Positions 13,076-36,508 of a stretch of 64,000 nucleotides of DNA are shown here, in pieces. Source of the DNA: Neglectibacter timonensis. Lineage in GTDB: Bacteria > Bacillota > Clostridia > Oscillospirales > Acutalibacteraceae. The DNA lies in assembly GCF_900048895.1 (NCBI RefSeq), contig NZ_LT160640.1, positions 124,001-188,000 on the forward strand, read 5' to 3'. The position numbers and the translations under genes were made by a program. Under the pieces are notes generated by a model. The model had not been told where the DNA came from and searched no databases. It worked only from the letters and a program-made list of their open reading frames with translations. How positions within the stretch are numbered: position 1 is the first letter of the stretch; the number at the start of each line of letters is the position of its first letter.

Positions 13076-14327
13076 CTGGTACCTCCACCTCTTTTACAAG
13101 GTCGGAGTACATCATCTTTTCTCCGTTTCTCTCCACAAAAATATCCTCCGGCGGGATGCCGTTCTCCACGGCCCTGCGGAGGATGACCGATGCGTACTTC
13201 TCGTCCAGTTCCATCATGCAGCAGACACGGTTCATCTGCTCACAGGCCATCATGGTGGAGCCGCTGCCGCCGAAGGTGTCGATCACCACGGCATTCTCTT
13301 GGGTGGAATTCCCGATGGGATATCCCAGCAGGTCCAGCGGCTTGGAGGTCGGGTGGTTTGCATTGCGCTTCGGTTTGTCGTAGTTCCAGATGGTGGTCTG
13401 CTTGCGGTCGGAATACCACGGGTGCTTGCCATTCTGCAGGAAGCCATACAGCACAGGCTCATGCTGCCACTGGTAATCCGAGCGTCCCAGCACCAGGGAG
13501 TTCTTCACCCAGATACACACGCCAGCCAGATGGAACCCGGCGTCAATGAACGCCTTTCGGAAGTTCAAGCCCTCAGTGTCCGCATGGAACACATAAGCTG
13601 CGCCGCCTTTCTCCAGATGCTCCGCCATGCACTGAAAAGCGGAGAGGAGGAAGTTATAAAACTCCTCGTCTTTCATGGAATCGTTCTGGATGGTCAGACC
13701 ACTGGAACTTTTGAAGGAAACGCCATAGGGCGGGTCCGTCACGATGAGATTGGCCTTCCTGCCGTCCATGAGCAGAGTCACATCCTCGGCGGAGGTGACA
13801 TCCCCGCATACAAGGCGGTGCCGGCCCACCGTCCAGATATCACCCCGCTCCACAAAGGAGGCTTTCTCAAGCGCGGCGGTCAGGTCAAAATCATCATCCC
13901 TGGCTTCGCTGCCGGAATCATCCGCAAACAGGTCGGCCAGTTCCTTCTCGTCAAAGCCGGTCAGCAGGGGATCAAAGTCCATGCCCTGCAGAGACTCGAT
14001 CTCCACCCGCAGAAGCTCCTCATCCCATCCGGCGTCCATCGCCATGCGGTTATCCGCAATGATATACGCTTTCTTCTGAGCTTCGGTGAGGTGGTCAGCA
14101 AAGACGCACGGCACTTCCTTGATGCCTTCCTCCTTTGCCGCCAGGATTCTGCCGTGGCCTGCAATCACGCCATAGTCACGATCGATGATGACGGGATTAA
14201 TAAAACCGAACTCCCGGAGAGACGAGCGGAGCTTGGTGATCTGCTCCGGGGAGTGGGTGCGGGCATTGTTTACATAGGGTACCAGCTTAGTAATGGGTAC
14301 AAGCTGCATCTCGGTCGTTGTCTTCAT
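13068..14327 (-). CDS. ParB-domain fused adenine/cytosine-N4 DNA methyltransferase
   Basis: In this protein of 419 residues, residues about 1-100 form a ParB/sulfiredoxin-like domain (VYNARTH-type segment, VIAGHGRILAAKEEG). The rest is an amino-methyltransferase with DPPYGVSF (motif IV) before TFGGSGSTMMACEQ (motif I), the beta-class order. ANHPTSKPLDLL is the expected PTSKP element. The ATG at 14327 overlaps the preceding stop as ATGA. With the C5 enzyme downstream and a SAM synthetase upstream it forms a DNA-modification module. N4-cytosine and N6-adenine targets cannot be distinguished here. Confidence 0.9.
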   Translation of the reverse strand: MKTTTEMQLVPITKLVPYVNNARTHSPEQITKLRSSLREFGFINPVIIDRDYGVIAGHGRILAAKEEGIKEVPCVFADHLTEAQKKAYIIADNRMAMDAGWDEELLRVEIESLQGMDFDPLLTGFDEKELADLFADDSGSEARDDDFDLTAALEKASFVERGDIWTVGRHRLVCGDVTSAEDVTLLMDGRKANLIVTDPPYGVSFKSSSGLTIQNDSMKDEEFYNFLLSAFQCMAEHLEKGGAAYVFHADTEGLNFRKAFIDAGFHLAGVCIWVKNSLVLGRSDYQWQHEPVLYGFLQNGKHPWYSDRKQTTIWNYDKPKRNANHPTSKPLDLLGYPIGNSTQENAVVIDTFGGSGSTMMACEQMNRVCCMMELDEKYASVILRRAVENGIPPEDIFVERNGEKMMYSDLVKEVEVPDE

Positions 14328-15109
14328 CGCACCAGCCCCCATTCCGCAAATTTCTCAAAACCGCCAAGGCTCTGGATGTATCTCCGGGCAGTCTCCACGA
14401 TCTCTCTATAGAGAATGCCGTCCACCGTATCATCCCCGATGGCGCAGCACAGTTCCACGGGCTTTCCCGTTTCCTGCGCCTTCAGCCATGCGTAGATATT
14501 GACAGACACATCTGCTTTGGAGAGGTCTTTCCCGTGAAGGCCGCCGCCCGTCACGGAATCGGCCATGTCGCTGCCCAGCTTCCGGTTGGCTGCGCCGGAG
14601 TCCACATCCGTGCCGCCCGTCCAGTCGCCCAGGGGATTGACCTCGGCGGAGGGATATAACCTTTTTAGTTCTTCCGTAGGCGCATTGCTCTGGCAGAGGA
14701 TCAGCCTTGCCTCATCAATGATGTACTTCCCATCCGAGGGATATGTGTGATACACATTTTTGGCAATCTCGCAGAGGGCTTTCTGCTCCTCCGTGACCGG
14801 CATTCCTTTGAAGATACCGTTGTCGCCGCAGCGGATTCCTTCTGCCTGGTTGTTGGCAAGGCGTCCGTCCTGCGGCACTTCCACATAATCCGGGTGCAAA
14901 TTCCCGCCGATACGCTTCACAATGGCGTCCACCTCATCCTGCGAAATGTGTACGGAACTCTCCGCGATGATGTGACAGACACCGTGGCCGATGAGGACTT
15001 CCACAGCAATCCTGGGATTTTCTTCTTTCCTGTACGCCGCATCCACCAGTGCGCCGGCGATTCGGTCGGCCACCTTATCCGGGTGGCACGGATTTACTTT
15101 CTCAAACAT
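14324..15109 (-). CDS. Phage-encoded S-adenosylmethionine synthetase (short form)
   Basis: This protein of 261 residues has MetK motifs: NPCHPDKVADRIAGALVDA near the start, GHGVCHIIAESSV, and GGTDVDSGAANRKLGSDMADS with GGGLHGKDLSKADVSVNIY. Cellular MetK is about 390 residues, so this is a much shortened member seen in prophages. It would make S-adenosylmethionine from methionine and ATP for the two DNA methyltransferases encoded immediately downstream. I chose the ATG just after the TerS stop, with AAGGGGTG upstream. Whether it is active without the missing parts is open. Confidence 0.87.
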   Translation of the reverse strand: MFEKVNPCHPDKVADRIAGALVDAAYRKEENPRIAVEVLIGHGVCHIIAESSVHISQDEVDAIVKRIGGNLHPDYVEVPQDGRLANNQAEGIRCGDNGIFKGMPVTEEQKALCEIAKNVYHTYPSDGKYIIDEARLILCQSNAPTEELKRLYPSAEVNPLGDWTGGTDVDSGAANRKLGSDMADSVTGGGLHGKDLSKADVSVNIYAWLKAQETGKPVELCCAIGDDTVDGILYREIVETARRYIQSLGGFEKFAEWGLVR

Positions 15110-15113
15110 GGCT

Positions 15114-15662
15114 TCACCCCTTCCTTGCACGGAGCAGACGCTCCATCAAATCGTCCTGGGGAGATATCTCCCCATAATCGGTGCTGCAGTTTTCCTTCAC
15201 GATCTGGAAGATTTCGTTCCAGAGCCGCACCGCCTGGTTCATGTAGTTAATGCCGATGTTAATGAACGGGGATGGGATCGGCTTCTGGGTGGTAGGATGC
15301 TTGGAGAGGAAACCCATGCGGTTGGTCATCTCCTCGCACTGAATCCAGCGGGCGCTGCACATGGCGTACCGCTCCAATAGCTGGGGAGACACCTTCGCCG
15401 CACAGCCCACCTTCTTTAACCACTCCCAGGTTTCCGTGTATATCTCCTCCGCCTGGAGCGTGCTTCCGTCACGCTGCTCGGCGGAGAGGAACTCATGGGG
15501 CTTTGGCATATCAACACCCTCGACTTCGGGAATATCCAGCACTTCCAATCTGCGCCCGCCCGGATTGCCGTTCTCGGCTTTCTCCTTGACCGCGGACTTT
15601 TTTCTTCCCGCACCGGGTCTCGCGCCGCCGCGCCCGCCTGTGTTATTAGATTTTGTCGGCAT
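15114..15662 (-). CDS. Terminase small subunit, P27 family
   Basis: The 182-residue protein starts with the basic, Gly-rich GGRGGARPGAGRKK segment typical of the P27 family. A helical region follows, with QLLERYAMCSARWIQCEEMT and INYMNQAVRLWNEIF. It recognises the packaging site and delivers DNA to TerL. The ATG follows AGGGG. TerS is separated from TerL by the methylation and amidoligase cassettes (about 7.6 kb), whereas they usually adjoin. Confidence 0.88.
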   Translation of the reverse strand: MPTKSNNTGGRGGARPGAGRKKSAVKEKAENGNPGGRRLEVLDIPEVEGVDMPKPHEFLSAEQRDGSTLQAEEIYTETWEWLKKVGCAAKVSPQLLERYAMCSARWIQCEEMTNRMGFLSKHPTTQKPIPSPFINIGINYMNQAVRLWNEIFQIVKENCSTDYGEISPQDDLMERLLRARKG

Positions 15663-22920: not shown

Positions 22921-23215
22921 GGAGCTGCGCTCCTGCGGGGAGACCATCATCGAAATCGCCAACACGCTGGCGGGGATGTTTTCTTCCCAGGCGGCAGAGG
23001 ATGCGCCGCCGAAGGAGAAGCCGAAAGCACTCACCCTTGAGGAGGTGCGCCACCGCATGACGGTGATCGCCCAGGCAGGGCACTCAGCAGAGGTGAAAGC
23101 CCTCATTACGAAGTACGGAGCGAGGAAGCTGTCGGACATCGACCCTTCTAAATTCGAAGGGCTTCTGAAGGAAGCGGACGCGCTCGGAAAGCCGGAGGCG
23201 GGGACCGATGGGTAA
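22886..23215 (+). CDS. Hypothetical phage protein (often mislabelled rRNA biogenesis rrp5)
   Basis: The 109-residue helical protein starts MGKLSDLDLQIKELRSCGE and has LTLEEVRHRMTVIAQAGHSAEV and ITKYGARKLSDIDPSKFEGLL. A protein of this size and pattern precedes DUF2800 genes in many Firmicutes prophages, often with the label rrp5, which has no basis here. ATG is eight bases from GGAGG. The stop overlaps the next start as ATGGGTAA. Confidence 0.75.
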   Translation: MGKLSDLDLQIKELRSCGETIIEIANTLAGMFSSQAAEDAPPKEKPKALTLEEVRHRMTVIAQAGHSAEVKALITKYGARKLSDIDPSKFEGLLKEADALGKPEAGTDG

Positions 23216-24368
23216 GCATTCCTTCCTTTCCGCCTCCGCAAGCCACAGGTGGATCAATTGCCCGCCGTCGGCGCGGCTCTGCGAGGAGTATGCGGACAGG
23301 CCCAGCGAATACGCCCAGGAGGGTACCGACTGCCATGAGCTGTGTGCTTATAAGGTGGAAAAAGCCCTTGGCCGCAGGGTGAAGGACCCTACGGAGAACC
23401 TGACCTACTACTCCCAGGAGATGGAGGACTGCGCCGACGGCTACTGTGCCTTCGTGATGGAGGAAGTGGCAAAGGCCAGGGAACGCTGCGCCGACCCGCT
23501 GGTGCTTGTGGAGCAGCGGCTCGACTATTCCCGCTATGTGGGGATCGAGGGCAGCTTCGGCACCGGGGACTGCGTCATTGTTTCGGACGGGCTTCTCCAC
23601 ATCATCGACTACAAGCACGGGCTTGGCGTCCTGGTGTCTGCGGAGAAGAACAGCCAGCTTTCCTGCTATGCGCTGGGCGCCCTCGACCTGTTCGATGGCA
23701 TCTACGATATCGCGCAGGTCAGCCTTACCATCTACCAGCCCCGCCGGGAGAACGTCAGCACATACACCATGAGCCGGGAAGAACTTCTGGCCTGGGCTGA
23801 GACCGTGCTTGCCCCTGCCGCAAAGCTGGCATACGAGGGCAAGGGCGAGTTTAAAGCCGGGAATCACTGCCAGTTCTGCAAGGCAAAAGCTACCTGCCGC
23901 AAACGGGCGGAATATAACCTGGAACTGGCACGGTATGACTTCGAGATGCCCGCGCTCCTGGGAGATGATGAGGTCGCCGCTATTCTTACCAAAGCGGACG
24001 AGCTGGTCTCCTGGGCCGGGGACATCAAGGACTACGCCCTGCAGAAAGCCCTGTCCGGGACGAAGTTCACAGGATTCAAAGTGGTCGAGGGCCGCTCCAA
24101 CCGGAAGTACACCGATGAAGCCGCAGTCGCCAAAGCGGTCGAGGATGCCGGTTACGAGCCTTATGAGAAGAAACTGCTGGGCATCACGGCCATGAGCCAG
24201 GCCCTTGGCCGGAAGAAGTTTGAAGAGCTGCTCGGCGGCCTTGTCTACAAGCCGCCCGGCAAACCCGTACTTGTGCCGGAGAGCGATAAGCGCCCGGCCA
24301 TGAACACAGCCATTAACGATTTCAAAGAAAATGAGGAGGACAACAACTATGGCAAAGATCGTAAATAA
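23208..24368 (+). CDS. DUF2800 protein, PD-(D/E)XK (Cas4/RecB-like) nuclease
   Basis: In this 386-residue protein the start SASASHRWINCPPSARL, GTDCHELCAY, the GSFGTGDCVIVSDGLLHIIDYK block and a C-terminal CQFCKAKATCRKR cluster match DUF2800. The GD...DYK residues suggest a Cas4/RecB-like nuclease active site, and the Cys pairs an iron-sulfur or zinc site. It probably acts in phage recombination together with the DUF2815 protein that follows. Confidence 0.88.
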   Translation: MGKHSFLSASASHRWINCPPSARLCEEYADRPSEYAQEGTDCHELCAYKVEKALGRRVKDPTENLTYYSQEMEDCADGYCAFVMEEVAKARERCADPLVLVEQRLDYSRYVGIEGSFGTGDCVIVSDGLLHIIDYKHGLGVLVSAEKNSQLSCYALGALDLFDGIYDIAQVSLTIYQPRRENVSTYTMSREELLAWAETVLAPAAKLAYEGKGEFKAGNHCQFCKAKATCRKRAEYNLELARYDFEMPALLGDDEVAAILTKADELVSWAGDIKDYALQKALSGTKFTGFKVVEGRSNRKYTDEAAVAKAVEDAGYEPYEKKLLGITAMSQALGRKKFEELLGGLVYKPPGKPVLVPESDKRPAMNTAINDFKENEEDNNYGKDRK

Positions 24369-24912
24369 GACGAAGGTAATCACCGGCCCCAGAACCCGCT
24401 GGAGCTATGCGAATGTCTGGGACCCCAAGAGCATCAACGGCGGCACGCCCAAGTACAGCGTCAGCCTGATCATCCCGAAGTCCGACAAGAAAACCGTGGA
24501 AGCCATCAAGGCGGCGATCCAGGCGGCCTATGAGGAGGGCGAGTCCAAACTGAAGGGCAACGGCAAGACCGTCCCCGCGCTCTCAGTCATCAAGACCCCG
24601 CTGCGTGACGGCGATGCGGAGCGCCCCGATGATCCAGTCTATGCGGATGCGTACTTCATCAACGCCAATTCCGCCACCGCCCCCGGCATCGTGGATGCGG
24701 ACCTGAACCCCATCCTGGAGCGTTCCGAGGTGTACTCCGGCGTGTACGGCAGGGCCAGCATCAACCTGTATGCCTTTAACTCCAACGGAAACCGGGGCAT
24801 CGCCTGCGGGCTGAACAACCTGCAGAAGATCTCCGATGGGGAGCCGCTGGGCGGCAAGAGCCGTGCCGAGGATGATTTCTCCACCGAGGACGATGACGAT
24901 TATCTTTCCTGA
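24349..24912 (+). CDS. DUF2815 protein, probable single-strand DNA-binding protein
   Basis: In this 187-residue protein SYANVWDPKSINGGTPKYSV, SLIIPKSDKKTVEAIKAAI and an EVYSGVYGRASINLYAFN segment are typical of DUF2815, predicted to have an OB-like fold. The tail is very acidic (DDFSTEDDDDYLS), like the C-termini of SSB proteins. ATG at 24349 has GGAGG nine bases upstream and overlaps the DUF2800 end by 20 bases. Confidence 0.87.
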   Translation: MAKIVNKTKVITGPRTRWSYANVWDPKSINGGTPKYSVSLIIPKSDKKTVEAIKAAIQAAYEEGESKLKGNGKTVPALSVIKTPLRDGDAERPDDPVYADAYFINANSATAPGIVDADLNPILERSEVYSGVYGRASINLYAFNSNGNRGIACGLNNLQKISDGEPLGGKSRAEDDFSTEDDDDYLS

Positions 24913-24977
24913 GACAACACAGGGCGGCAGTCACCGCTGCCGCCCGCCCATTCAAAGAAAATGCGAGGTAAATGGAT

Positions 24978-25157
24978 ATGACAGAGTTTTATGAGTTCGC
25001 AAAACAGTTTGATGTGATCGTGATTTTCATTCTCCTGTACGGATTTGCCGTCGGCAGCATCGTGTACTGGATCACCGACTTCCTGCACTGGTGCTGGACA
25101 AAGTTCAAGAAGCACAGGGAGAAAAAACGCCAGGCGGCAAAACAGCCGGAGGAATAA
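24978..25157 (+). CDS. Small single-span membrane protein
   Basis: This protein of about 59 residues has one hydrophobic helix (VIVIFILLYGFAVGSIVYWI, about 13-32), followed by aromatic residues and a basic tail (KKHREKKRQAAKQ). I prefer the second ATG, nine bases after GAGG. It lies between the SSB-like and polymerase genes, so a membrane-anchoring role in replication is possible. It is not a recognisable holin. Confidence 0.55.
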   Translation: MTEFYEFAKQFDVIVIFILLYGFAVGSIVYWITDFLHWCWTKFKKHREKKRQAAKQPEE

Positions 25158-25219
25158 GCAATGCGCACCGGGCGGCAGGAACAGCACTCCTGCCGCCTGT
25201 TTTTATGGAGGTAAAACAC

Positions 25220-27208
25220 ATGGCAATCCACACCCTATCAATCGACTTGGAGACCTTTTCCGATGTCGATCTGAAAAAATGCGGCGTGTATAAATACGCC
25301 GAGTCCCATGATTTTGAAATCCTGCTCTTCGGCGTGTCCGTGGATGGCGGCGAGGTCACCGTATATGATCTGGCGTCCGGCGACATCGTACCGGAGGAGA
25401 TTATCAAAGCCCTCTCGGACGATTCCGTCATCAAGTGGGCGTACAATGCGTCCTTCGAGCGTATTTGCCTTTCTGTCTGGCTGCGCCGAAACTATCCGCA
25501 GTATTTTTCTTCCTACAGCATAGAGGACGATACCGTCCGGAATTACCTTGACCCGTCCTCCTGGCGCTGCTCCCTGGTATGGGGCGCGTACATGGGGCTG
25601 CCCCTCTCTCTGGAGGGGATCGGCAAAGTCCTGAAGCTGGAAAACCAGAAGATGGCAGAAGGCAAGGCGCTCATCCGCTATTTCTGCGTCCCCTGCAAGC
25701 CTACCAAGGCCAACGGCGGCAGGATGCGTAATCTTCCGGAGCATGACCCGGTGAAGTGGTCAACCTTCATCGCGTATAACAAGCGGGATGTGGAAACCGA
25801 GATGGCGATCCAGCAGAAGCTGTCGAAGTTCCCCGTGCCGGATTTCCTATGGGAGGAATATCATCTCGACCAGGAGATCAACGACCGGGGCATACAGCTT
25901 GACATGGTGCTGGTGGAACAGGCCATCGACATTGATGAGCGTTCCAGGGAAGAACTCTCCGCAAAGATGCGGCAGCTCACCGCCCTGGAAAACCCGAACT
26001 CCGTCCAGCAGATGAAGGAATGGCTCACAAAGCACGGCCTTGAGGTGGACTCCCTGGACAAGAAAGCCGTGAAGGAACTATTGAAAACTGCGCCGCCGGA
26101 GCTTGCCGAGGTGCTGGAACTGCGCCGGCAGCTTGCCAAGTCCTCTGTAAAGAAGTACCAGGCGATGCAGAACGCCGTATGTGCGGACGGCAGGGCGAGA
26201 GGGATGTTCCAGTTTTATGGCGCGAACCGCAGTGGCCGCTGGGCGGGCCGGCTGATCCAATTGCAGAACCTACCGCAGAACCACATGGCGCATCTGGAAG
26301 ATGCGAGAAGCCTTGTCCGTTCCGGGGATTACGCCTTGCTCTCTGCACTGTATGACTCCGTGCCGGAAGTCCTGTCGGAACTCATCCGCACAGCGTTTGT
26401 GCCGAGGGACGGGTACAAATTCATCGTTTCTGACTTTTCCGCCATCGAAGCCAGAGTGCTTTCCTTTCTGGCCGGCGAGTCCTGGCGGCTGAAGGTCTTT
26501 GCGGAGAACGGCGACATCTACTGTGCCAGCGCCTCCGCCATGTTCCATGTCCCGGTGGAAAAGCACGGACAGAACGCACATCTGAGACAGAAAGGTAAAA
26601 TCGCCGAACTCGCCCTCGGATATGGCGGATCGGTGGGCGCGCTCAAGTCGATGGGCGCGCTGGAAATGGGGCTTTCCGAGGAGGAACTCCAGCCCCTTGT
26701 GGATGCGTGGCGCACCTCCAATCCGAACATCGTGCAGCTTTGGTGGGATGTGGACAATGCGGTAAAAACCACCGTCCGCCAGCGGCTTGACACAGAGACG
26801 CACGGCATCCGGTTCCGTTACCGCAGCGGGATGCTGTTCATCATTCTGCCTTCCGGCCGCCAGCTCTGCTATGTGAAGCCGAAGATGGGGACAAATAAAT
26901 TCGGCGGCGATTCCGTCACCTATGAGGGCATCGGCAGCACAAAGAAGTGGGAGCGCATCGAATCTTACGGCCCGAAATTCACGGAAAACGTCGTCCAGGC
27001 CATCTCCAGGGATATTCTCATGCATGCTATACGGACGCTGTCTCACTGCTTTATCGTCGGCCATGTCCACGATGAGCTGATCATTGAGTGTGGCATGGAT
27101 GTCTCCCTAAACGCTGTCTGTAAACAGATGGGAAGGACGCCGCTGTGGATAGAGGGGCTAAATCTCCGGGCGGACGGCTATGAAACCATGTTTTACAAGA
27201 AGGACTGA
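25220..27208 (+). CDS. Phage DNA polymerase, family A
   Basis: In this 662-residue protein the N-terminus has a 3'-5' exonuclease motif, IDLETFSDVDL (about 8-18). The polymerase domain has motif A SDFSAIEARVLSFLAGE (about 404-420), motif B with KIAELALGYGGS (about 458-469) and motif C HVHDELIIE (about 613-621). It is the replicative polymerase of the prophage. ATG is eight bases from GGAGG. It is convergent with a sigma-like gene and followed by a bidirectional hairpin. Confidence 0.95.
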   Translation: MAIHTLSIDLETFSDVDLKKCGVYKYAESHDFEILLFGVSVDGGEVTVYDLASGDIVPEEIIKALSDDSVIKWAYNASFERICLSVWLRRNYPQYFSSYSIEDDTVRNYLDPSSWRCSLVWGAYMGLPLSLEGIGKVLKLENQKMAEGKALIRYFCVPCKPTKANGGRMRNLPEHDPVKWSTFIAYNKRDVETEMAIQQKLSKFPVPDFLWEEYHLDQEINDRGIQLDMVLVEQAIDIDERSREELSAKMRQLTALENPNSVQQMKEWLTKHGLEVDSLDKKAVKELLKTAPPELAEVLELRRQLAKSSVKKYQAMQNAVCADGRARGMFQFYGANRSGRWAGRLIQLQNLPQNHMAHLEDARSLVRSGDYALLSALYDSVPEVLSELIRTAFVPRDGYKFIVSDFSAIEARVLSFLAGESWRLKVFAENGDIYCASASAMFHVPVEKHGQNAHLRQKGKIAELALGYGGSVGALKSMGALEMGLSEEELQPLVDAWRTSNPNIVQLWWDVDNAVKTTVRQRLDTETHGIRFRYRSGMLFIILPSGRQLCYVKPKMGTNKFGGDSVTYEGIGSTKKWERIESYGPKFTENVVQAISRDILMHAIRTLSHCFIVGHVHDELIIECGMDVSLNAVCKQMGRTPLWIEGLNLRADGYETMFYKKD

Positions 27209-28322: not shown

Positions 28323-28808
28323 TCATCGTTTGCCTTTTTCAACCCAGCTATATTTTTCGTTTTTATATTGGCAGATAAACTCGTCTCTATCATTAAAATG
28401 ATGCCCCATTAAATTCGGACGAATATAATCGCGGGCAGCAAGAATCAAGTCTTCATCAGCATTGTTATCTACCATCGCCATCATAGCGAGGGCATATCCA
28501 ACATAAAGTCCGTCCAGATACCCCGTCTGATGGAGGTTGTCAATTAGCAATTTGTCAGGCAGACCGCTATATCCCTTGGGGATAAGCCCTTCTTCAAAAA
28601 GTTGCTCTGACCATAATGTCTCTACTTTCTGTTCCAATTCTGGATTATTGCGTAACCGCTTGATAGTATCCGGGAGGTCTTTCATCTGACTCTCCAGATA
28701 ATCAAAAAACATATTGACTGACATCTTAACCAGTTCTTTTATCCTGTTGTTAGCCTCAGCTTTTGCTTCATCCACAACGCCATCACCAAGACGTACATTT
28801 TCACTCAT
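28323..28808 (-). CDS. Hypothetical protein of the restriction/IrrE operon
   Basis: The 161-residue, mostly helical, acidic protein starts MSENVRLGDGVVDEAKAEAN and has VNMFFDYLESQMKDLPDTIK and LDGLYVGYALAMMAMVDN. No family is recognised. It is the last gene of a minus-strand operon behind the IrrE-type protein (gap of 31 bases, GGAGG seven bases from ATG). Its conservation with the upstream genes would show whether it is part of the defence system. Confidence 0.7.
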   Translation of the reverse strand: MSENVRLGDGVVDEAKAEANNRIKELVKMSVNMFFDYLESQMKDLPDTIKRLRNNPELEQKVETLWSEQLFEEGLIPKGYSGLPDKLLIDNLHQTGYLDGLYVGYALAMMAMVDNNADEDLILAARDYIRPNLMGHHFNDRDEFICQYKNEKYSWVEKGKR

Positions 28809-28839
28809 AGGGTTTCCTCCTCATGTTATAATCCCGTAT

Positions 28840-30705
28840 TTATAGCGGACTGGCTCCCTGTTCCTGCAGGAACGCCTGTATTTCCGGTATTTCTTTTGGA
28901 TACATATTCTTCAGTACAAACCGATACCAATTGTGGTCATCGTTGTTTAAGAGCAGCTTATGCCCGGAGCGTTGAATCAAGTAGTCGCTCATTTCCCAGG
29001 GCAGATGGGCAGCAAGACACATCAGCACCACATTGTTGAGCGTTCCGATAGTATCGCCATTGATGATATGCCCGATGGTCTTTTCCGTGATCGTGGTGCG
29101 GCGGGCAAGTTCTGCCTGTGAAATGCCCCTCCACTTCAGCAGTTCTTTCCATGCTTTCGTGTAGTTGTTGGAAAGACCGTCCAGTACCCTGGCCTCCTCC
29201 ATAACCGTATCACGGATCAATTTCTTCCTGCTTTCCGCATCAAGCTCACCATTTTCTCCCTTATACACAATATCGAAGTCAATAGGGGAGCTTTTATCAC
29301 GGTTCAGGAAGCATTCCCTGTGGTAGCGTTCCTCGACCCGGCCACGGATGGAAAGATCAAATGCCAGACAGCATTCATCCACATGATACCGGGCATAGTC
29401 GGTCATCAAAGTCTCGCCTGCTTCATTCTGATACACATACCTTGGATGGTTCAGAACAAAGTGCGAATCGATATAAACATAATGGTCGGCGTCTTTCAGC
29501 TTGGGATTGATAATGCTCTGGATTGCTGCGTCCTGCGCCGGGATAGAATAGGTCTGGTTATGCTTGATCGAGCCTTTCTTATAGGCGTGGGGTTTTACAT
29601 AATGCCCGTCTATGTAAATGAACGCTCCCGCCGCTTCCTCGTACCCGGCATCGATCATCCGCAGCTTTGCCGCTGTCCGGGAAACCATGAAAAAGGTCGC
29701 AAGTTCTTCAATGACGAAAGGCATCAACTCGCACAGTTCAAAAACACCCAGCTCGTCACGGTATTTCCGGATTGTAGCGGAAGCCTGCCGCTTAAACATA
29801 GCGAGAGGCATCTGGATGCGGGGAGCAAGGGCATTCGCCTGCCATTCCATCCACTTAGTGTCATCGTTGCTCGGTCCTTCTATGCCACCGACAACCTTAC
29901 ACTTTATTTGGCTTGCTTCCTCGTTGAATAACTGCTCCAATGCAAACGCTTTTTTATGAAGTTCCCAGTGGACACACTCATGAACGATGGTATTATTATA
30001 TGCTCCGAGATTTCTCTGGAAAGCCACGGACGGGTCAACAACAATAGTTCCTGGGAAGACATGTTTTTCAATTTCTTCTGCCTTATCGTCATCATACAGT
30101 TTAGCGTCCGTTTCCCGAAAATAAATCTGTCCGAAAACGCTCAGATCCTCTGAGATACGGTGTGGGATTACTGTCAAATCCATCCGCTTTGCCAATTCGG
30201 TGGGGTTAACCCACATTGGCTGCAGAAGCGCCTCTTTGTAGTATTTCCGCAGGAACGCTTCGGCTTCTTTTTCCAGATTGTCTTTATAGATGATTGGCAC
30301 GAGCGCATTGGACAGCGGGCGTTTCTGACGGTTACGGCTGTCATATACAAGAACATCATAAATATCCAGATCACTCAGTCCGCAGTCCAGATCCCCACGG
30401 CAACGGAGCATGAACCATTGATGCGTTGCTTCGGTCTCGTCATTATAGTACTGGTCTTCATCGTGGACAATCAGCGTGGTATCCATTACCACATCAAATT
30501 CTATGGCTGAGCCGGGGAGGTCAGATACATCGACAAACTGCAAATCTGTATCGTAAAGCTCAATTTCGCCGACATTCCGGACTCTGTTAAGGCGCAAATC
30601 AAGAACAGAAGGGTCAACAGAAGTCAGAAAATCCTCAATTGCCCTCCACATCTGATTGTCAAGGTTATTCTTAACATACTCCTTGAATGATCGGCTTTGT
30701 CTCAC
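28840..30705 (-). CDS. ImmA/IrrE metallopeptidase with C-terminal HTH
   Basis: In this 621-residue protein the centre contains the zinc protease motif HECVH (242-246) with a downstream glutamate in WMEWQANALAPR (about 285-296), typical of ImmA/IrrE peptidases. The C-terminal part holds an XRE-like HTH (WRGISQAELARRTTITEKTI). The N-terminal about 150 residues are unrelated to known domains that I recognise. IrrE-type proteases cleave repressors in response to stress, so this protein could regulate the methyltransferase/nuclease genes or act as an effector. The start is GTG, eight bases after GGAGG. ImmA itself is only about 130 residues. Confidence 0.8.
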   Translation of the reverse strand: MRQSRSFKEYVKNNLDNQMWRAIEDFLTSVDPSVLDLRLNRVRNVGEIELYDTDLQFVDVSDLPGSAIEFDVVMDTTLIVHDEDQYYNDETEATHQWFMLRCRGDLDCGLSDLDIYDVLVYDSRNRQKRPLSNALVPIIYKDNLEKEAEAFLRKYYKEALLQPMWVNPTELAKRMDLTVIPHRISEDLSVFGQIYFRETDAKLYDDDKAEEIEKHVFPGTIVVDPSVAFQRNLGAYNNTIVHECVHWELHKKAFALEQLFNEEASQIKCKVVGGIEGPSNDDTKWMEWQANALAPRIQMPLAMFKRQASATIRKYRDELGVFELCELMPFVIEELATFFMVSRTAAKLRMIDAGYEEAAGAFIYIDGHYVKPHAYKKGSIKHNQTYSIPAQDAAIQSIINPKLKDADHYVYIDSHFVLNHPRYVYQNEAGETLMTDYARYHVDECCLAFDLSIRGRVEERYHRECFLNRDKSSPIDFDIVYKGENGELDAESRKKLIRDTVMEEARVLDGLSNNYTKAWKELLKWRGISQAELARRTTITEKTIGHIINGDTIGTLNNVVLMCLAAHLPWEMSDYLIQRSGHKLLLNNDDHNWYRFVLKNMYPKEIPEIQAFLQEQGASPL

Positions 30706-30717
30706 ATGAACACCCTC

Positions 30718-32220
30718 CTACAATGCATTAAAAAACATCATGCTGTTTTGCACTTGTGGCCAGTTTATTTCCAATCCGACACCGACCCGATATGCTGCCG
30801 AGCGACCATTTTCTTTAACAAACCCCATCTTTTTCAAAAATGACAATTCTGCCTGAAATGGCTTTCTCGTGCCACCAGCACGGATAGTGCTTTTCTTTGC
30901 CAAGTGTAGTGTGTTCGTAAACTCGTCATCCAACCACGACAAATAGGCCCCGGAATCAAACTTGTAATTTCCGCGGCTATCCTTCGTTGCGAATGCGAAT
31001 AAATCCGATTCGAATTTCTCCTCAGATAGTTTGTAGAAATAGTGAAGCATCGCACCATACTGCCCGTTCTGTAATACTGCCGCCCTCAAAATTTCCATAG
31101 GAACGCCTGCATAAGCGCTTGCAACTCTTTCACAGGCATCAACATACTTATAGCCCAAATCTGTTAAGGTCCCACCTGGAGCAAGAAAACCTATATGATA
31201 CAGTCCAGAATCAATAACTTCCCGGTAGCTATGAGAATCTTTTCTGACCTTTGCGGCATATTCCTCCCAAATAGCATCCTCGTCAGCAGGATTTGCATTC
31301 AGTTTGTTCACCAGCTTAGACTTTATCGAATCACTCCGGCCAGAAAAGAGTCCCTGATAATGTCCATCGTCATCCAGGCGAATTCTTGTAGGCATATCAT
31401 TTACCGTGAACGGACTGGTGCCCCGATAGATTGGCATAAGATCGTTCCAAAAATAATAATGAAACCAGACATACCTCCACGCCATATCGGAGACAGTATC
31501 CCCAGGGGTATTCGACAAATATTTATAAACATCCACAGAAGGATCAATTCTCTTCACTGCTTCGGAAAGTTTGATGGGGATACTGACCCCACTCAAATCC
31601 TCGCCCATTGCAGTAACGATTTTTACTGCCTGACAGAATCTGAAAAAGGCATCTGGGTGGCTCATTCCCTCACGCATATGAGCCCATAAGGTTGATACAC
31701 TTCCTGTAGTAGAAGCGATCGTAGTAGAGCCGATACTCCGACAACTTGGTAGGGATATATCTCTAACGCAGTTCAATTTTCCTTGGAAGGGGCGAACGGC
31801 GGAGAGATTTGGCGCTGCATATGTATATATGCTGATCGGAATATCCGGTGCGGTCGCGTCGATAACTCTCTTAATGTGCGCGCCTGGTGTACTGTGGGAT
31901 GAATACTTATCTGGAATCACCATAACGGATGCATCGTATCCTTTTTCCAGATAAGCAAAAGACTGTCCCAATGCGGTGAGTATGCCGTGAACGCCCTCGT
32001 TAGGCCGTTTATACTCAAATGCTATTTTTATATCGCTGTGAGTGGTATTCTCAGCAAGAATGACACCATCAGCAAGCGGCCACTGATGTCCGCCTTCGCG
32101 CATCGCATAAACCGACCACAGCCCACTTGTACCCATCGTCCCAAAGAATGCGTCCTGGTTAAGCATAATCATATCCGCTACTTCAGATGAAGCATATGCG
32201 GCTTCTGTATCATGGCTCAT
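30718..32220 (-). CDS. Probable PD-(D/E)XK restriction endonuclease
   Basis: This 500-residue protein is of unknown family. Near the N-terminus LADGVILAENT (Asp51) followed by IKIAFEYKRPNEG (Glu69, Lys71) has the D...E-x-K spacing of PD-(D/E)XK nucleases. The rest is helical, with YVWFHYYFWNDLMPIYRG and a C-terminal winged-helix-like KKMGFVKENGRSAAYRV. It starts at an ATGA overlap with the second cytosine methyltransferase. This order, two C5 methyltransferases then this gene, suggests it is the restriction enzyme of the locus. The nuclease call is inference from context and a short motif. Confidence 0.62.
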   Translation of the reverse strand: MSHDTEAAYASSEVADMIMLNQDAFFGTMGTSGLWSVYAMREGGHQWPLADGVILAENTTHSDIKIAFEYKRPNEGVHGILTALGQSFAYLEKGYDASVMVIPDKYSSHSTPGAHIKRVIDATAPDIPISIYTYAAPNLSAVRPFQGKLNCVRDISLPSCRSIGSTTIASTTGSVSTLWAHMREGMSHPDAFFRFCQAVKIVTAMGEDLSGVSIPIKLSEAVKRIDPSVDVYKYLSNTPGDTVSDMAWRYVWFHYYFWNDLMPIYRGTSPFTVNDMPTRIRLDDDGHYQGLFSGRSDSIKSKLVNKLNANPADEDAIWEEYAAKVRKDSHSYREVIDSGLYHIGFLAPGGTLTDLGYKYVDACERVASAYAGVPMEILRAAVLQNGQYGAMLHYFYKLSEEKFESDLFAFATKDSRGNYKFDSGAYLSWLDDEFTNTLHLAKKSTIRAGGTRKPFQAELSFLKKMGFVKENGRSAAYRVGVGLEINWPQVQNSMMFFNAL

Positions 32221-33290
32221 GGCGTTACCTCCTCACTGTTTTCAATATATTCCCGTATTTTCTTTAAAAATGGTTCAGCCATTTTAGGAGGAACCGCATT
32301 GCCGACTTGAATGCACTGTTCCTGCCTTGTTCCGAAGAAAATATGTGTGTCTGGAAAAGTCTGTATTCTAGCAGCTTCCCTTGCAGTAAGCGTTCTATTT
32401 AATATCGGATGAATTGGGAATGCGTTATGCCCCGGGACCATTGTCGTTGACGGCTTGTTTCTGTCCAGCCGTTTATAGACGTGGCTGTAATTTGACACTT
32501 TCCCCGTCTTTGAGTCTCTCCGTGTAGCTACCGCAAGTTCGGGAGGGAGATCATCAACATTCAGTTTGCATCCCTCTTTAACATACCCATACCTCGCGGC
32601 CACAATTGGCTTATGGGCCAAAGGAACATGGTTAGGTATCTGGTTTTCTTTTCCCATCAAATCCATGATTGCGCTACCAACTGTAGCGTACACCGGCATT
32701 TTTCCAGAACCGATTGGGAAATTCGTCTTCTCCGGCGGCTCATAATTCACTCCAATTCTGTTCCCAATCATAAACATACGATATCGTTCTTGCGGTACAC
32801 CGTAATCAGCAGAACAGACGATTTCACACCAAATATTTTCATATCCGATTTCTCTAAATCGCTCTTCGATTTTTTTTACAAATAGACCTTTGTCAAGATT
32901 TGTAAATCCCTTTACATTCTCCATAAAGAAAAATTTCGGTTTTAGCATCTCCACAATTCTAATATACTCATACACAAGCGCATTCCGAGGATCGTTCTGC
33001 GGTTCATATCCCTGCGTATTGATAAATCTTCGTTTTCCGAAAACCGAAAAGCCCTGACAAGGCGGGCCGCCGACTACTAAATCGACATCACGCCCCTTTA
33101 GTATAGCCTCCAGTTTATCTCGTCCCAGGTGCTTGATATCCTCCAGAATTAAAGGAATATCGGGGAAATTATAACTGTGTGTTTCGGCGAACCGCGCATT
33201 TATCTCATTTGCCAGTAACACATTAAATCCACTGTTTTTTAGTGCCAGAGTCAAACCGCCGGCTCCTGAAAATAAATCAATTGCGTTCAT
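32217..33290 (-). CDS. DNA (cytosine-5) methyltransferase 2
   Basis: The 357-residue enzyme has motif I AIDLFSGAGGLTLAL, catalytic GGPPCQGFSVFG, MENVKG (motif VI), QERYRMFMIGNR (motif VIII) and QVGNAVPP (motif X). The presumed target recognition region includes NHVPLAHKP, LPPELAVATRRDSKTGK and YKRLDRNKPSTTMVPGHNAF. Much of this is shared with the preceding methyltransferase. Its ATG overlaps the end of that gene by 14 bases. Paired C5 enzymes protect an asymmetric site, one strand each, in known type II systems. Confidence 0.93.
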   Translation of the reverse strand: MNAIDLFSGAGGLTLALKNSGFNVLLANEINARFAETHSYNFPDIPLILEDIKHLGRDKLEAILKGRDVDLVVGGPPCQGFSVFGKRRFINTQGYEPQNDPRNALVYEYIRIVEMLKPKFFFMENVKGFTNLDKGLFVKKIEERFREIGYENIWCEIVCSADYGVPQERYRMFMIGNRIGVNYEPPEKTNFPIGSGKMPVYATVGSAIMDLMGKENQIPNHVPLAHKPIVAARYGYVKEGCKLNVDDLPPELAVATRRDSKTGKVSNYSHVYKRLDRNKPSTTMVPGHNAFPIHPILNRTLTAREAARIQTFPDTHIFFGTRQEQCIQVGNAVPPKMAEPFLKKIREYIENSEEVTP

Positions 33291-34338
33291 CCTTTTCCTC
33301 CTCCGAGGCTTTTTCTAACTGCAAGAGCAAGAATTTAGCCAGTTTCTCGGAGAAGAGCGGGGGCACCGCGTTTCCCACTTGGTGTCCTTGCTGTCTTCGA
33401 TTCCCTTCAAAAATCATTTCATCGGGGAATGTCTGAATCCTGGCTGCTTCACGGACAGTAAGGCTTCTGTTCAGTTCTGGGTGTATTGGAAACGCATCAT
33501 TTCCTGGAACCATCGTTAGCGCAGGCCGTGACCGATTAAGCCTCTTGTATGTGTTGCCAAAATTTTTTCTGTACAGCTCTGGCGGTAATGAATCTTCTGG
33601 AAGACGCCCGCCTTCCGGAATCATCTTATACCTCGCTATTATTTTATCTGTATGTTTTAAAGCTACATGGTTGAATTCCGGCATATCCTTCAGACCAACC
33701 AAGTCCTTAATAACATCCCAGCACGGTACCCATCCTGGCAAGCCGTCATTAGGATTGTCCGAATGATCCGGTTCGGGAAATGCAACGGGAAGCCCCATGC
33801 GGTTTCCTATTATTATGACTCTCTCTCTAATTTGAGGTACCCCGTAGTCGGCCATGTTTATAAGTCTATAGTCTACATTATATCCTGCACCCTTTAATTC
33901 CTTGAGAACAGTTGCAAGATATGCTCCACCTTTCATAGTAAGGATACCTTTTACGTTTTCCATAACAATAAACTTTGGACGCAATTCACGGATGAGTCTT
34001 GCATACGTCAGTACCAGTTCATTGCGAGGATCGTGTTCGGCCCTCACTTCAGGATTGGAGGATACTCGCTTACCAATTGTTGAAAAGCCTTGACACGGGG
34101 GACCACCAATGACGATGTCTACATCGCTACCATCGAGATATTTCTTGACTTCGTCCGATGACAATTCCCTGATATCTTTATTGATGAAAGGAATGTTCGG
34201 GAAGTTCCTTTTATGCGTTTTTTCTACAAGGTTATCGTTATCAACACAAAGCCTGATGTCATACCCGGTCTTTTCAAATCCCATGTGAAGTCCGCCTGCT
34301 CCACAGAATAAATCTACTACTTTGAATTGTTTGCCCAT
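33277..34338 (-). CDS. DNA (cytosine-5) methyltransferase 1
   Basis: In this 353-residue protein motif I is VVDLFCGAGGLHMGFEKTGY, the catalytic loop GGPPCQGFSTIG, motif VI MENVKGIL, motif VIII QIRERVIIIGNR, and motif X QVGNAVPP. The recognition region (NHVALKHTDKIIARYKMIPE, LPPELYRKNFGNTYKRLN) is similar to, but distinct from, that of the next gene. ATG at 34338 follows AAGGAG by eight bases; an earlier TTG lacks a site. It is AT-richer than the prophage core. Confidence 0.93.
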   Translation of the reverse strand: MGKQFKVVDLFCGAGGLHMGFEKTGYDIRLCVDNDNLVEKTHKRNFPNIPFINKDIRELSSDEVKKYLDGSDVDIVIGGPPCQGFSTIGKRVSSNPEVRAEHDPRNELVLTYARLIRELRPKFIVMENVKGILTMKGGAYLATVLKELKGAGYNVDYRLINMADYGVPQIRERVIIIGNRMGLPVAFPEPDHSDNPNDGLPGWVPCWDVIKDLVGLKDMPEFNHVALKHTDKIIARYKMIPEGGRLPEDSLPPELYRKNFGNTYKRLNRSRPALTMVPGNDAFPIHPELNRSLTVREAARIQTFPDEMIFEGNRRQQGHQVGNAVPPLFSEKLAKFLLLQLEKASEEEKDERN

Positions 34339-34374
34339 GCTACCAACTCCTTGCTTGCTGTGGTATATCAAAAA

Positions 34375-34569
34375 TCACTCCATTGCGCTTTTGCCGCTGT
34401 TTACCCAAGCGTCCAACTCTGAATATTTGAATTTCCATTGTTTTCCGATTTTATGGGCAGGGATGTTTTTTCCTTTTCGAATCCAATCCCTAACAGTTGC
34501 AGGCTTCACACTAAGATAGTTGGCAGCCTCATCAATGTTAATCCATTTTTCCTCAATTCTTTCGCTCAT
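34375..34569 (-). CDS. Small HTH protein (excisionase-like)
   Basis: In this 64-residue protein INIDEAANYLSVKPATVRDW and the following KIGKQWKFKYSELDAWV are the HTH_17 / excisionase-family pattern. It heads the operon of the methyltransferases and nuclease. It could be a control protein for the restriction-like genes or an excisionase for the prophage, as it lies at the presumed right end. ATG follows GAGGTGG. A promoter with direct repeats lies just upstream. Confidence 0.8.
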   Translation of the reverse strand: MSERIEEKWINIDEAANYLSVKPATVRDWIRKGKNIPAHKIGKQWKFKYSELDAWVNSGKSAME

Positions 34570-34748: not shown

Positions 34749-34791
34749 TTCTACTCTGTAACGATAAGAAAGTTATCGTTACAGAGTAGAA
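34749..34791. repeat. Perfect 19-bp inverted repeat
   Basis: TTCTACTCTGTAACGATAA (34749-34767) is exactly complementary to the arm at 34773-34791, with a five-base GAAAG loop. No T run follows, so it is not a normal terminator. It lies between the cargo operon and the chromosome and could be a recombination or regulator site. Confidence 0.85.
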
Positions 34792-35140: not shown

Positions 35141-36508
35141 TTATTCTTTGACTTTTGACATCAATACTACGCACTCCACATGACTGGTACCGGGAAACAT
35201 GTCTACTGGAGCGGCTTCTATAAGCGGGTAACCCAGTCTGGCAAACTGCTTCAAATCCCGTGCCAGGGTGGCGGGGTCGCAGGAAACGTATACAATGCGT
35301 TTTGGATCAAAGGAAACCACCGTATCGATCAAATCCGCTCCGCAACCCTTTCGGGGAGGGTCCAGGATGACCACATCGGGGAATTCTCCCCGCTCAGCCA
35401 GTAATTTTGCAGCCTGGGCGGCGTCTCTGCAAAGGAATTCTGCATTGTGTATCCCGTTGCTTTCCGCGTTCTTTTTTGCATTTTCAATTGCTTCCGGCAC
35501 AATTTCCACCCCGATCAGCTTTTGAATGCGGTGCGCCATGGAAAGCCCGATTGTTCCGGTTCCGCAGTAAAGGTCCAGAAGTGTCTCGGCGCCGGTGAGG
35601 GCTGCGTATTCTGCCGCCTGCAGGTAAAGCCGTTCCGCCTGACCGCGGTTGACCTGATAAAAGGAGAGAGGGGAAATATGGAATTCCAGACCGCAAAGCT
35701 GATCCCGGATGGTACTTGAACCATAGACGGTGCGGCATTTCTTCCCCAACGCCACATTGGTGCGCTCCCTGTTGGAGTTTATCACCACGCTGGCAAGGGT
35801 TGGAAGCGCCTCTTTCAGCATTCTGGTAAGTTCTGCCTCATGGTGAAGCCCATTGCCATTGACCACCACGCATACCATAATTTCGCCGGTTATTTCCCCT
35901 TTGCGCAGGTACAGGCGGCGCATTGTACCGCTGTGGGAGGCCTCGTCGTAGACAGGATCCCCGTATTGTTCGGCCCAGCGGCGAAATACGTTCATAGCCA
36001 GCCGAAATTCCTCCGGCTGCAGTGCGCAGGCCTCGCAGTTTACAATCCTGTGGGAGTTAACAGCATAGAATCCCATCTGAAGAGCACCTGCTTTGCCCTG
36101 CCCGAGAGGGAGCAAAGCCTTGTTTCGGTAGCCGTCCCTGGAATCAGCCCCAAGAATAGGTTTGAGCTGGGGATCGGAAAGGCCCCCGATGCGCGTCAGG
36201 GCGTCCCGCACCCGCTCTTCCTTGATCCGCAGCTCTGCCGCGTAGCTGATATGGCGGTAGCAGCAGCCTCCGCACTGGGCAAAGACAGGGCAGTCAGGTT
36301 CGGTACGGTCCTGGGATGGGGTGATTAGCTTTTCCAACCGGCCGTAGGCAAAACGCTTTTCCGTTTTCACAATGCGTATCTCGGCAATATCGCCGGGAGC
36401 CGTTAAGGGAACAAAAACAGCGATTCCGTGGATTCTGCCAACGCCGAAACCTTCTGCTGTCATACCGGTTATATGAATTTGTAAGAGTTCGTTTTTGTGA
36501 AGTTCCAT
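35141..36508 (-). CDS. rlmCD: 23S rRNA (uracil-C5) methyltransferase, RlmCD/RumA type
   Basis: This 455-residue protein has an N-terminal TRAM domain (LQIHITGMTAEGFGVGRI), an iron-sulfur cluster motif CPVFAQCGGCCYRH (about 74-87), and a SAM methyltransferase domain with LLDLYCGTGTIGLSM, LDPPRKGC and the catalytic-Cys segment IVYVSCDPATLARD. It makes 5-methyluridine in 23S rRNA. In Gram-positive bacteria a single RlmCD enzyme can do both sites, which I cannot judge here. ATG follows AGGAG by six bases. A promoter TTGTAA-18-TATAAT lies about 60 bases upstream. Confidence 0.92.
   Translation of the reverse strand: MELHKNELLQIHITGMTAEGFGVGRIHGIAVFVPLTAPGDIAEIRIVKTEKRFAYGRLEKLITPSQDRTEPDCPVFAQCGGCCYRHISYAAELRIKEERVRDALTRIGGLSDPQLKPILGADSRDGYRNKALLPLGQGKAGALQMGFYAVNSHRIVNCEACALQPEEFRLAMNVFRRWAEQYGDPVYDEASHSGTMRRLYLRKGEITGEIMVCVVVNGNGLHHEAELTRMLKEALPTLASVVINSNRERTNVALGKKCRTVYGSSTIRDQLCGLEFHISPLSFYQVNRGQAERLYLQAAEYAALTGAETLLDLYCGTGTIGLSMAHRIQKLIGVEIVPEAIENAKKNAESNGIHNAEFLCRDAAQAAKLLAERGEFPDVVILDPPRKGCGADLIDTVVSFDPKRIVYVSCDPATLARDLKQFARLGYPLIEAAPVDMFPGTSHVECVVLMSKVKE

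Follow-up and report, generated by a model that had tools for sequence, protein, structure and literature searches.

Genes of the array and the prophage boundary

The 64,000-nucleotide stretch of the Neglectibacter timonensis contig NZ_LT160640.1 analyzed here (the window) carries six consecutive minus-strand genes, which comprise a restriction-modification (RM) cassette and a large metalloprotease-like protein. A 64-amino-acid helix-turn-helix protein (HTH; 34569-34375; HTH_17, PF12728 3.3e-16; excisionase/MAD1-like) is followed by two C5-cytosine methyltransferases, M1 (34338-33277; 353 amino acids; PF00145 9.1e-69) and M2 (33290-32217; 357 amino acids; PF00145 2.3e-66), a PaqCI-like Type IIS restriction endonuclease, R (32220-30718; 500 amino acids; catalytic D51, E69, and K71), an IrrE(M78)-HTH metalloprotease-like protein, phrog_4031 (30705-28840; 621 amino acids, GTG start; hereafter IrrE-HTH), and, as the end gene, a 161-amino-acid protein termed p161 (28808-28323). 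All six open reading frames (ORFs) lie on the strand and at the places given in the original prediction, overlapping or nearly abutting: M1/M2 and M2/R overlap, and gaps of 12 nt and 31 nt separate R from IrrE-HTH and IrrE-HTH from p161, respectively. M1 is read from the ATG at 34338, its likeliest start, with a ribosome-binding-like stretch before it; the longest reading begins at TTG 34371.

These genes do not form a free-standing chromosomal defence operon, and their setting is corrected here: they sit at that edge of a ~52-kb prophage which adjoins rumA, and the prophage is akin to the streptococcal phages phi1207.3 and phi-m46.1. The prophage takes up the window as far as ~35.2 kb, with terminase and portal genes inside and two serine recombinase genes to the left of the window (Pfam). 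Its integration site is the 3' end of a rumA/rlmD-like 23S rRNA uracil methyltransferase gene (35141..36508, minus strand; 35% match to the annotated rum of phi-m46.1), in which the probable attL core region (35169..35186, minus strand) shares CATGTGGAG with an attR partner at window position -17047, ~52.2 kb from attL; only CATGTGGAG is common to both. By sequence alone, the left site is one of three equally weak matches (the two others at 5 mismatches), and position -17047 was preferred for its flank, which in relatives forms the continuation of rumA. Four genomes of the same genus (G826, G217, G819, and G822) have an uninterrupted rumA that runs into the DNA beyond the left end of the prophage, and the rumA match was absent in three more related loci. 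The pair 35169-35186/-17047 is therefore regarded as the probable pair of attachment sites. Phage phi-m46.1 integrates in rum, with an attB that corresponds to attL here (PMC4288039).

Beyond the array follow a sigma-70 region-4-like phage protein (27250..27870, minus strand; 206 amino acids; PF08281 5.7e-05, 23.1 bits and hence below the cut-off of 25.7) and, on the plus strand, a replication block homologous to streptococcal phages (23208..27208) that encodes DUF2800-like and DUF2815-like proteins and a family-A DNA polymerase. The DUF2800 name is our own presumption. Gene by gene, polA, DUF2800, DUF2815, primase, and SNF2 are 46-72% identical to their counterparts in three streptococcal phage loci (L088, L090, and L096, the SNF2 match of L096 being cut by the end of its stretch), their order is the same as in published phi1207.3, and the names DUF2815 and polymerase are used as for that phage (PMC4260502). 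Replication block and edge cargo are thus both present, as in phi1207.3/phi-m46.1-like phages.

In Lachnospiraceae CE91-St61 (L058) a phage is identical to that of the window over 16,095 bp at 99.994% and keeps all six genes together, yet has other recombinases (37-43% identity) and another insertion site (boundary at L058:5772 versus 34934 in the window). The ORF at its end, in place of rumA, we take to be cfa. The two phages thus differ by a swapped integration module. For p161, no Pfam match over the cut-off and no PHROG or NCBIfam match was obtained, and relatives in viral contigs were confined to the closest phages, namely two loci, the same phage and one 89% identical. An ORF that belongs to the rRNA adenine dimethylases (L050:3170-3904, minus strand; PF00398, 4e-65) lies ~16.1-16.8 kb left of the window, in the part of the prophage where the recombinases are encoded, and has a short fragment next to it; we assume from their reading that the ORF is an Erm resistance methylase and the fragment Mef-like.

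Transcript signals were sought by consensus. A promoter-like site precedes the array (34645-34617, minus strand; 10/12 matches, extended -10), and terminator-like hairpins follow rumA (35109-35066, minus strand) and p161 (28214-28178, minus strand), the latter being the probable operon end. All three are consensus matches only, promoter-like sites numbering 18 against 13.9 (standard deviation 4.0) expected and terminator-like hairpins 11 against 6.2 (standard deviation 3.0); they would fit one putative transcript for the six genes. A perfect inverted repeat with two 19-bp arms (34749-34791), located 180 nt upstream of the HTH gene and shared with the CE91-St61 phage, is a possible operator of the cassette.

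The PaqCI-like restriction-modification cassette

R is homologous over its full length to PaqCI (PDB 8em1/8epx; E 4.5e-79, 269.7 bits, query 2-493 on chain 4-505) and also matches the PADLOC model REase_II (1.6e-112). The nuclease domain of PaqCI is N-terminal and its catalytic residues are D54, E73, and K75; the enzyme recognizes CACCTGC, with cleavage 4 and 8 bases downstream of this site (PMC10201449). The D51...E69-x-K71 signature that had been proposed from the letters of R alone is in place, and its residues align with PaqCI D54/E73/K75. Two C5 methylases adjoin this PD-(D/E)XK nuclease, 43% identical to each other and both containing the PPCQ and ENV motifs, which bears out the earlier suggestion of a two-methyltransferase restriction system; the asymmetric recognition site suggested along with it is judged probable. 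Near the C-terminus, a basic stretch that may correspond to one of the DNA-contact loops of PaqCI is partly kept (RARPRVR in PaqCI, IRAGGTR in R). As this stretch is kept in part only, the site of R may differ from CACCTGC. CACCTGC counts gave no signal of avoidance (8 in the phage with 8.3 expected, 10 in host DNA with 7.5 expected), and avoidance was discarded as a sign of specificity, counts being near expectation.

The 64-amino-acid HTH protein is probably the cassette regulator. Homologues of it head other cassettes (L015, L061, L066-L068, L085, L086, and L089), and it scores 61.6 bits against NF047737 (MAD1; cut-off 80). R itself is rare: it was found in 2 of 398 genomes of the family, the present one included, in 1 of 398 of the phylum, again the present one, and in a single viral contig, which is the same phage. 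Searches of 50,697 phage and 72,556 plasmid records gave no match. The second genome context is informative with respect to the extent of the system, as genome G265 encodes an M1-M2-R trio at 79, 78, and 73% identity, and no IrrE match was found in its assembly, which is 93% complete. The trio can thus stand alone, and HTH-M1-M2-R would constitute a self-contained RM cassette, its autonomy being suggested by these comparisons.

In the working that we propose, each C5 methylase would protect one strand of the asymmetric site, and R, with its N-terminal PD-(D/E)XK domain and a C-terminal recognition domain, would cut unmodified DNA a few bases beside it, with the small HTH protein setting cassette expression. 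Such a cassette would shield the lysogen from other DNA and therefore the prophage with it.

A second group of methylase genes lies deeper in the window (11153-15130). It comprises an ORF that reads like a C5 methylase and, by Pfam, a ParB-N6/N4 methylase and an ORF resembling S-adenosylmethionine synthetase, as in phi1207.3 (PMC4260502). They look like orphan methylases of the phage backbone, distinct from the RM cassette.

The cargo slot and the possible role of IrrE-HTH

The RM genes lie in a slot between the rumA attachment site and the first backbone gene, with IrrE-HTH bounding the cargo; of 50 loci examined, 15 have a rumA homologue next to the slot. Beside IrrE, related phages carry Eco29kI, LlaJI, NgoFVII, or Type I RM genes, a YhcG gene, resistance genes, or nothing. 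Of 220 pairs of loci that differ in cargo, 160 lose homology no more than 60 nt from the IrrE start; these 160 correspond to 28 cargo-class pairs, with near-identical loci included and cargo classes assigned by hand. Gene calls in the loci are mechanical ORFs; Pfam later bore out the N6/N4 and HsdM assignments of L071, L074, and L053, while that of L009 is provisional. In the streptococcal phages the neighbours of IrrE are resistance genes, in L006 and L073 the slot beside it is empty, and less closely related IrrE loci, where examined, have RM genes other than those of the window. Collectively, these comparisons indicate that IrrE-HTH is phage-borne and RM exchangeable cargo. What the sequence itself establishes is the identity of R and the methylases with their catalytic residues, the existence of the prophage and the site it occupies, the slot, and the exchange of cargo. 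SpyI RM of phi1207.3 provides a published precedent for cargo in this slot (PMC4260502, PMC13293514). A literature search, which was not exhaustive, returned no description of the breadth of the slot across the phage family or of a role of phrog_4031.

The linkage between IrrE and methyltransferase genes, on which the original prediction turned, is real and recurs in relatives, but it is mainly positional, with different RM types beside IrrE. Likewise, the same six-gene order does exist elsewhere, in CE91-St61; this is no independent support because it is the same phage segment, and more distant IrrE loci hold other RM genes. What is not supported is IrrE-HTH as a part of the RM system, since it stays while RM types change and is also found by resistance genes or empty slots. 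Membership in this particular RM system was rejected in view of the swapping of cassettes at the IrrE start and of the G265 trio without an IrrE match.

To compare the two sides of IrrE, 75 non-redundant upstream and 65 downstream ORFs were collected from 37 of the 50 IrrE loci. The PADLOC methylase model PDLC03279 matched 15 of the 75 upstream ORFs, and methylase models listed downstream had one member each among the families listed. An IrrE-independent sample was drawn by phage polymerase and comprised 80 viral loci, 22 of them with an orientable slot of at least 6 kb; 6 of 12 strong-IrrE loci fell out (L116, L134, L143, L144, L169, and L188), whereas L114, in which IrrE matched weakly, went into the IrrE-less group. 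Slot cargo was scored with three Pfam families (C5 methylase, N6/N4 methylase, and Type I specificity), which replaced a biased cargo panel taken from IrrE loci that had given 5 of 16 IrrE-less slots. The wide count adds 3 kb on the cargo side and the strict count considers the inside of the slot only, by which L128 and L136 lose their methylase with nuclease genes still in the slot. By the wide count, restriction genes occurred at 6/6 slots with IrrE and 12/16 without; by the strict count, the figures were 4/6 and 10/16. Because RM genes are also present in IrrE-less slots, restriction cargo is independent of IrrE, and the notion of IrrE-less phages as RM-free was dropped. Among the families listed for 87 ORFs from the 16 IrrE-less slots, Type I and helicase families were commonest, with ABC-3C, SacI, and others present too; in four of these slots (L113, L141, L164, and L180) no C5, N6/N4, or Type I specificity gene was found in or near the slot.

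We thus consider it very probable that the locus as a whole is explained by a Type IIS RM cassette of the PaqCI kind carried as slot cargo of a prophage, with IrrE-HTH belonging to the phage. IrrE-HTH would keep its place while cassettes swap with the joint at its start codon, and is here probably co-transcribed with the cassette. Its placement at the edge of a phage cargo slot largely accounts for its presence in a restriction operon.

What IrrE-HTH does for the phage is a more tentative matter. Both the IrrE domain (PF06114, 24.9 bits, cut-off 22) and the HTH domain (PF01381, 25.9 bits, cut-off 23) exceed their Pfam cut-offs, so the claimed fusion of an IrrE-type protease to an HTH holds. 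H242, E243, H246, and E287, the last presumably the third metal ligand, are invariant in 21/21 relatives, as are many residues outside the protease domain. Of the 45 loci in which the DNA extends far enough (3 others end too early), 38 have a sigma-70-region-4-like gene downstream of IrrE in the same orientation, and its product is a possible partner of IrrE-HTH. PprI, of the IrrE family, cleaves its repressor on binding single-stranded DNA (PMC10904395), and ImmA acts by similar repressor cleavage in prophages (PMC12637031). Invariant catalytic residues, the precedent of PprI and ImmA, and the recurrent sigma-like gene downstream favour an ImmA/PprI-like prophage regulator, a role that is guessed by analogy and that we hold to be plausible, if somewhat short of an even chance; upon a DNA-damage signal, IrrE-HTH would cleave one of the prophage's DNA-binding regulators. 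The idea that its regular partner is a paired XRE repressor was rejected: the small HTH genes near IrrE vary between loci and some head methylase cassettes, for which reasons they look like cassette regulators instead. In two LlaJI-type loci (L015:7185-7979 and L089:8159-8977), a second short ORF resembling part of IrrE-HTH lies just before the full gene, and that of L089 resembles its C-terminal HTH end.

Several observations pull against this combined account. C5 methylases lie by the slot in 6/6 loci with IrrE versus 3/16 without (Fisher p 0.0011; strictly inside, 4/6 versus 2/16, p 0.025), an enrichment that is a lead only, as the sample is small, the phages are related, and three families were tested. 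Other defence models, helicase-like ones among them, reach up to 3 members each among the families listed downstream of IrrE. The 12-nt gap from R to IrrE-HTH contains no strong terminator, and the GC content of IrrE-HTH (47.9%) is closer to the cassette than to the phage core. An essential regulator is further at odds with phi1207.3, titled a temperate phage, in the first 16 kb of which no IrrE match was found, and with phi-m46.1, in which the IrrE homologue is split over two ORFs and which is nevertheless mitomycin-inducible (PMC4288039).

Part of this would suit an alternative that we deem unlikely, in which IrrE-HTH is the general companion of cargo RM, a protease-regulator that delays or releases restriction and stays while cassettes differ, for example until methylation finishes on entry into an unmodified cell, or by damage-derepression through removal of the small HTH protein. 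The C5 enrichment, the position of IrrE in the same inferred transcript, and the HTH_17 proteins heading several IrrE-ended cassettes with different nucleases all speak for it, and an enteropathogenic Escherichia coli island with the small repressor RptR, a Type I RM system, and an M48 metallopeptidase is an analogue (PMC12255303). However, IrrE is found as well by resistance genes and by the empty slots of L006 and L073, RM genes reside in 12/16 IrrE-less slots and in phi1207.3, and in L059 and L003 IrrE is retained but no HTH_17 match was found, a different small regulator being present in L059. There is only a small chance that IrrE-HTH is a cassette-independent controller, timing or tempering whichever C5-type RM fills the slot; if it were, the phage could acquire and replace restriction systems while the newly entered cell survives.

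Still more doubtful is an ArdC-like anti-restriction protein that guards incoming phage DNA and is encoded near attP for early expression, as the location near the phage edge might suggest. The MPTase-PolyVal profile, which we take to be that of the ArdC-type peptidase, reached 13.0 bits against a cut-off of 27.5, and membership in this family was rejected. ArdC, which binds single-stranded DNA and has a metalloprotease fold like that of IrrE, counters HsdRMS, but does so without need of protease activity (PMC7213743), whereas in IrrE-HTH the HExxH motif and third ligand are invariant in all 21 relatives. A single six-gene defence system in which IrrE-HTH serves this RM alone, as its damage sensor or an additional effector, could be argued from the tight spacing on one strand and the intact array in CE91-St61, but is very improbable and largely refuted by the cassette exchange at the IrrE start, the differing RM genes of more distant IrrE loci, and the PaqCI-like trio of G265.

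Returning to the phage-borne IrrE-HTH beside exchangeable cargo, restriction systems are known to move between bacteria, and here the loading bay itself becomes visible: in a broad family of Bacillota temperate phages, many RM types have been exchanged in one slot, the joint recurring at one and the same start codon, and the streptococcal members hold resistance genes there. The slot offers a natural series for how a phage may introduce restriction into a naive cell without harm, and can be searched for new nucleases. It also cautions that a conserved neighbour need not belong to a defence system.

Comparison with known systems

R resembles PaqCI of Paucibacter aquatile (CACCTGC 4/8) in its full-length homology and aligned catalytic D/E/K residues, and differs from it in being divergent, with the C-terminal basic stretch only partly kept. 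The small excisionase-like HTH ahead of methylases recalls MADS (PADLOC mad1 matches it at 5.3e-12, and the mad2 profile matches 14 of the 75 upstream cargo ORFs), but MADS was rejected, as MAD1 stays at 61.6 of the required 80 bits and no other MADS gene was identified at the locus. With PprI/IrrE-DdrO, ImmA-ImmR, and CapP-CapH, IrrE-HTH shares the M78 metalloprotease and the conserved HExxH; unlike them, it has 621 amino acids, further conserved regions, and its own HTH. CapP-CapH was dismissed at 35.6 bits over profile positions 68-201 of 242 only, with no CapH or CBASS gene among the matches listed for the six proteins, 25 each in the case of M1 and M2.

Closest in arrangement are the streptococcal phages. 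SpyI of the Streptococcus pyogenes prophage phi1207.3 is RM cargo in the same slot beside the same replication genes; it differs in being LlaJI-like, in that its nuclease has two subunits, and in having a single C5 methylase (PMC4260502, PMC13293514), and its phage differs in the lack of an IrrE match in the 16 kb seen and in integrating in comEC, not rum (PMC4288039). Integration in rum has been shown for phi-m46.1 (PMC4288039). Together with phi-SsUD.1 and phi-SC181, this phage carries drug and metal resistance as the cargo seen, unlike the window, yet all three share with it the DUF2800/DUF2815/polA block and an IrrE homologue (27-32% identity in phi-SsUD.1 and phi-SC181, split in phi-m46.1) that sits, as here, between the cargo and that block.

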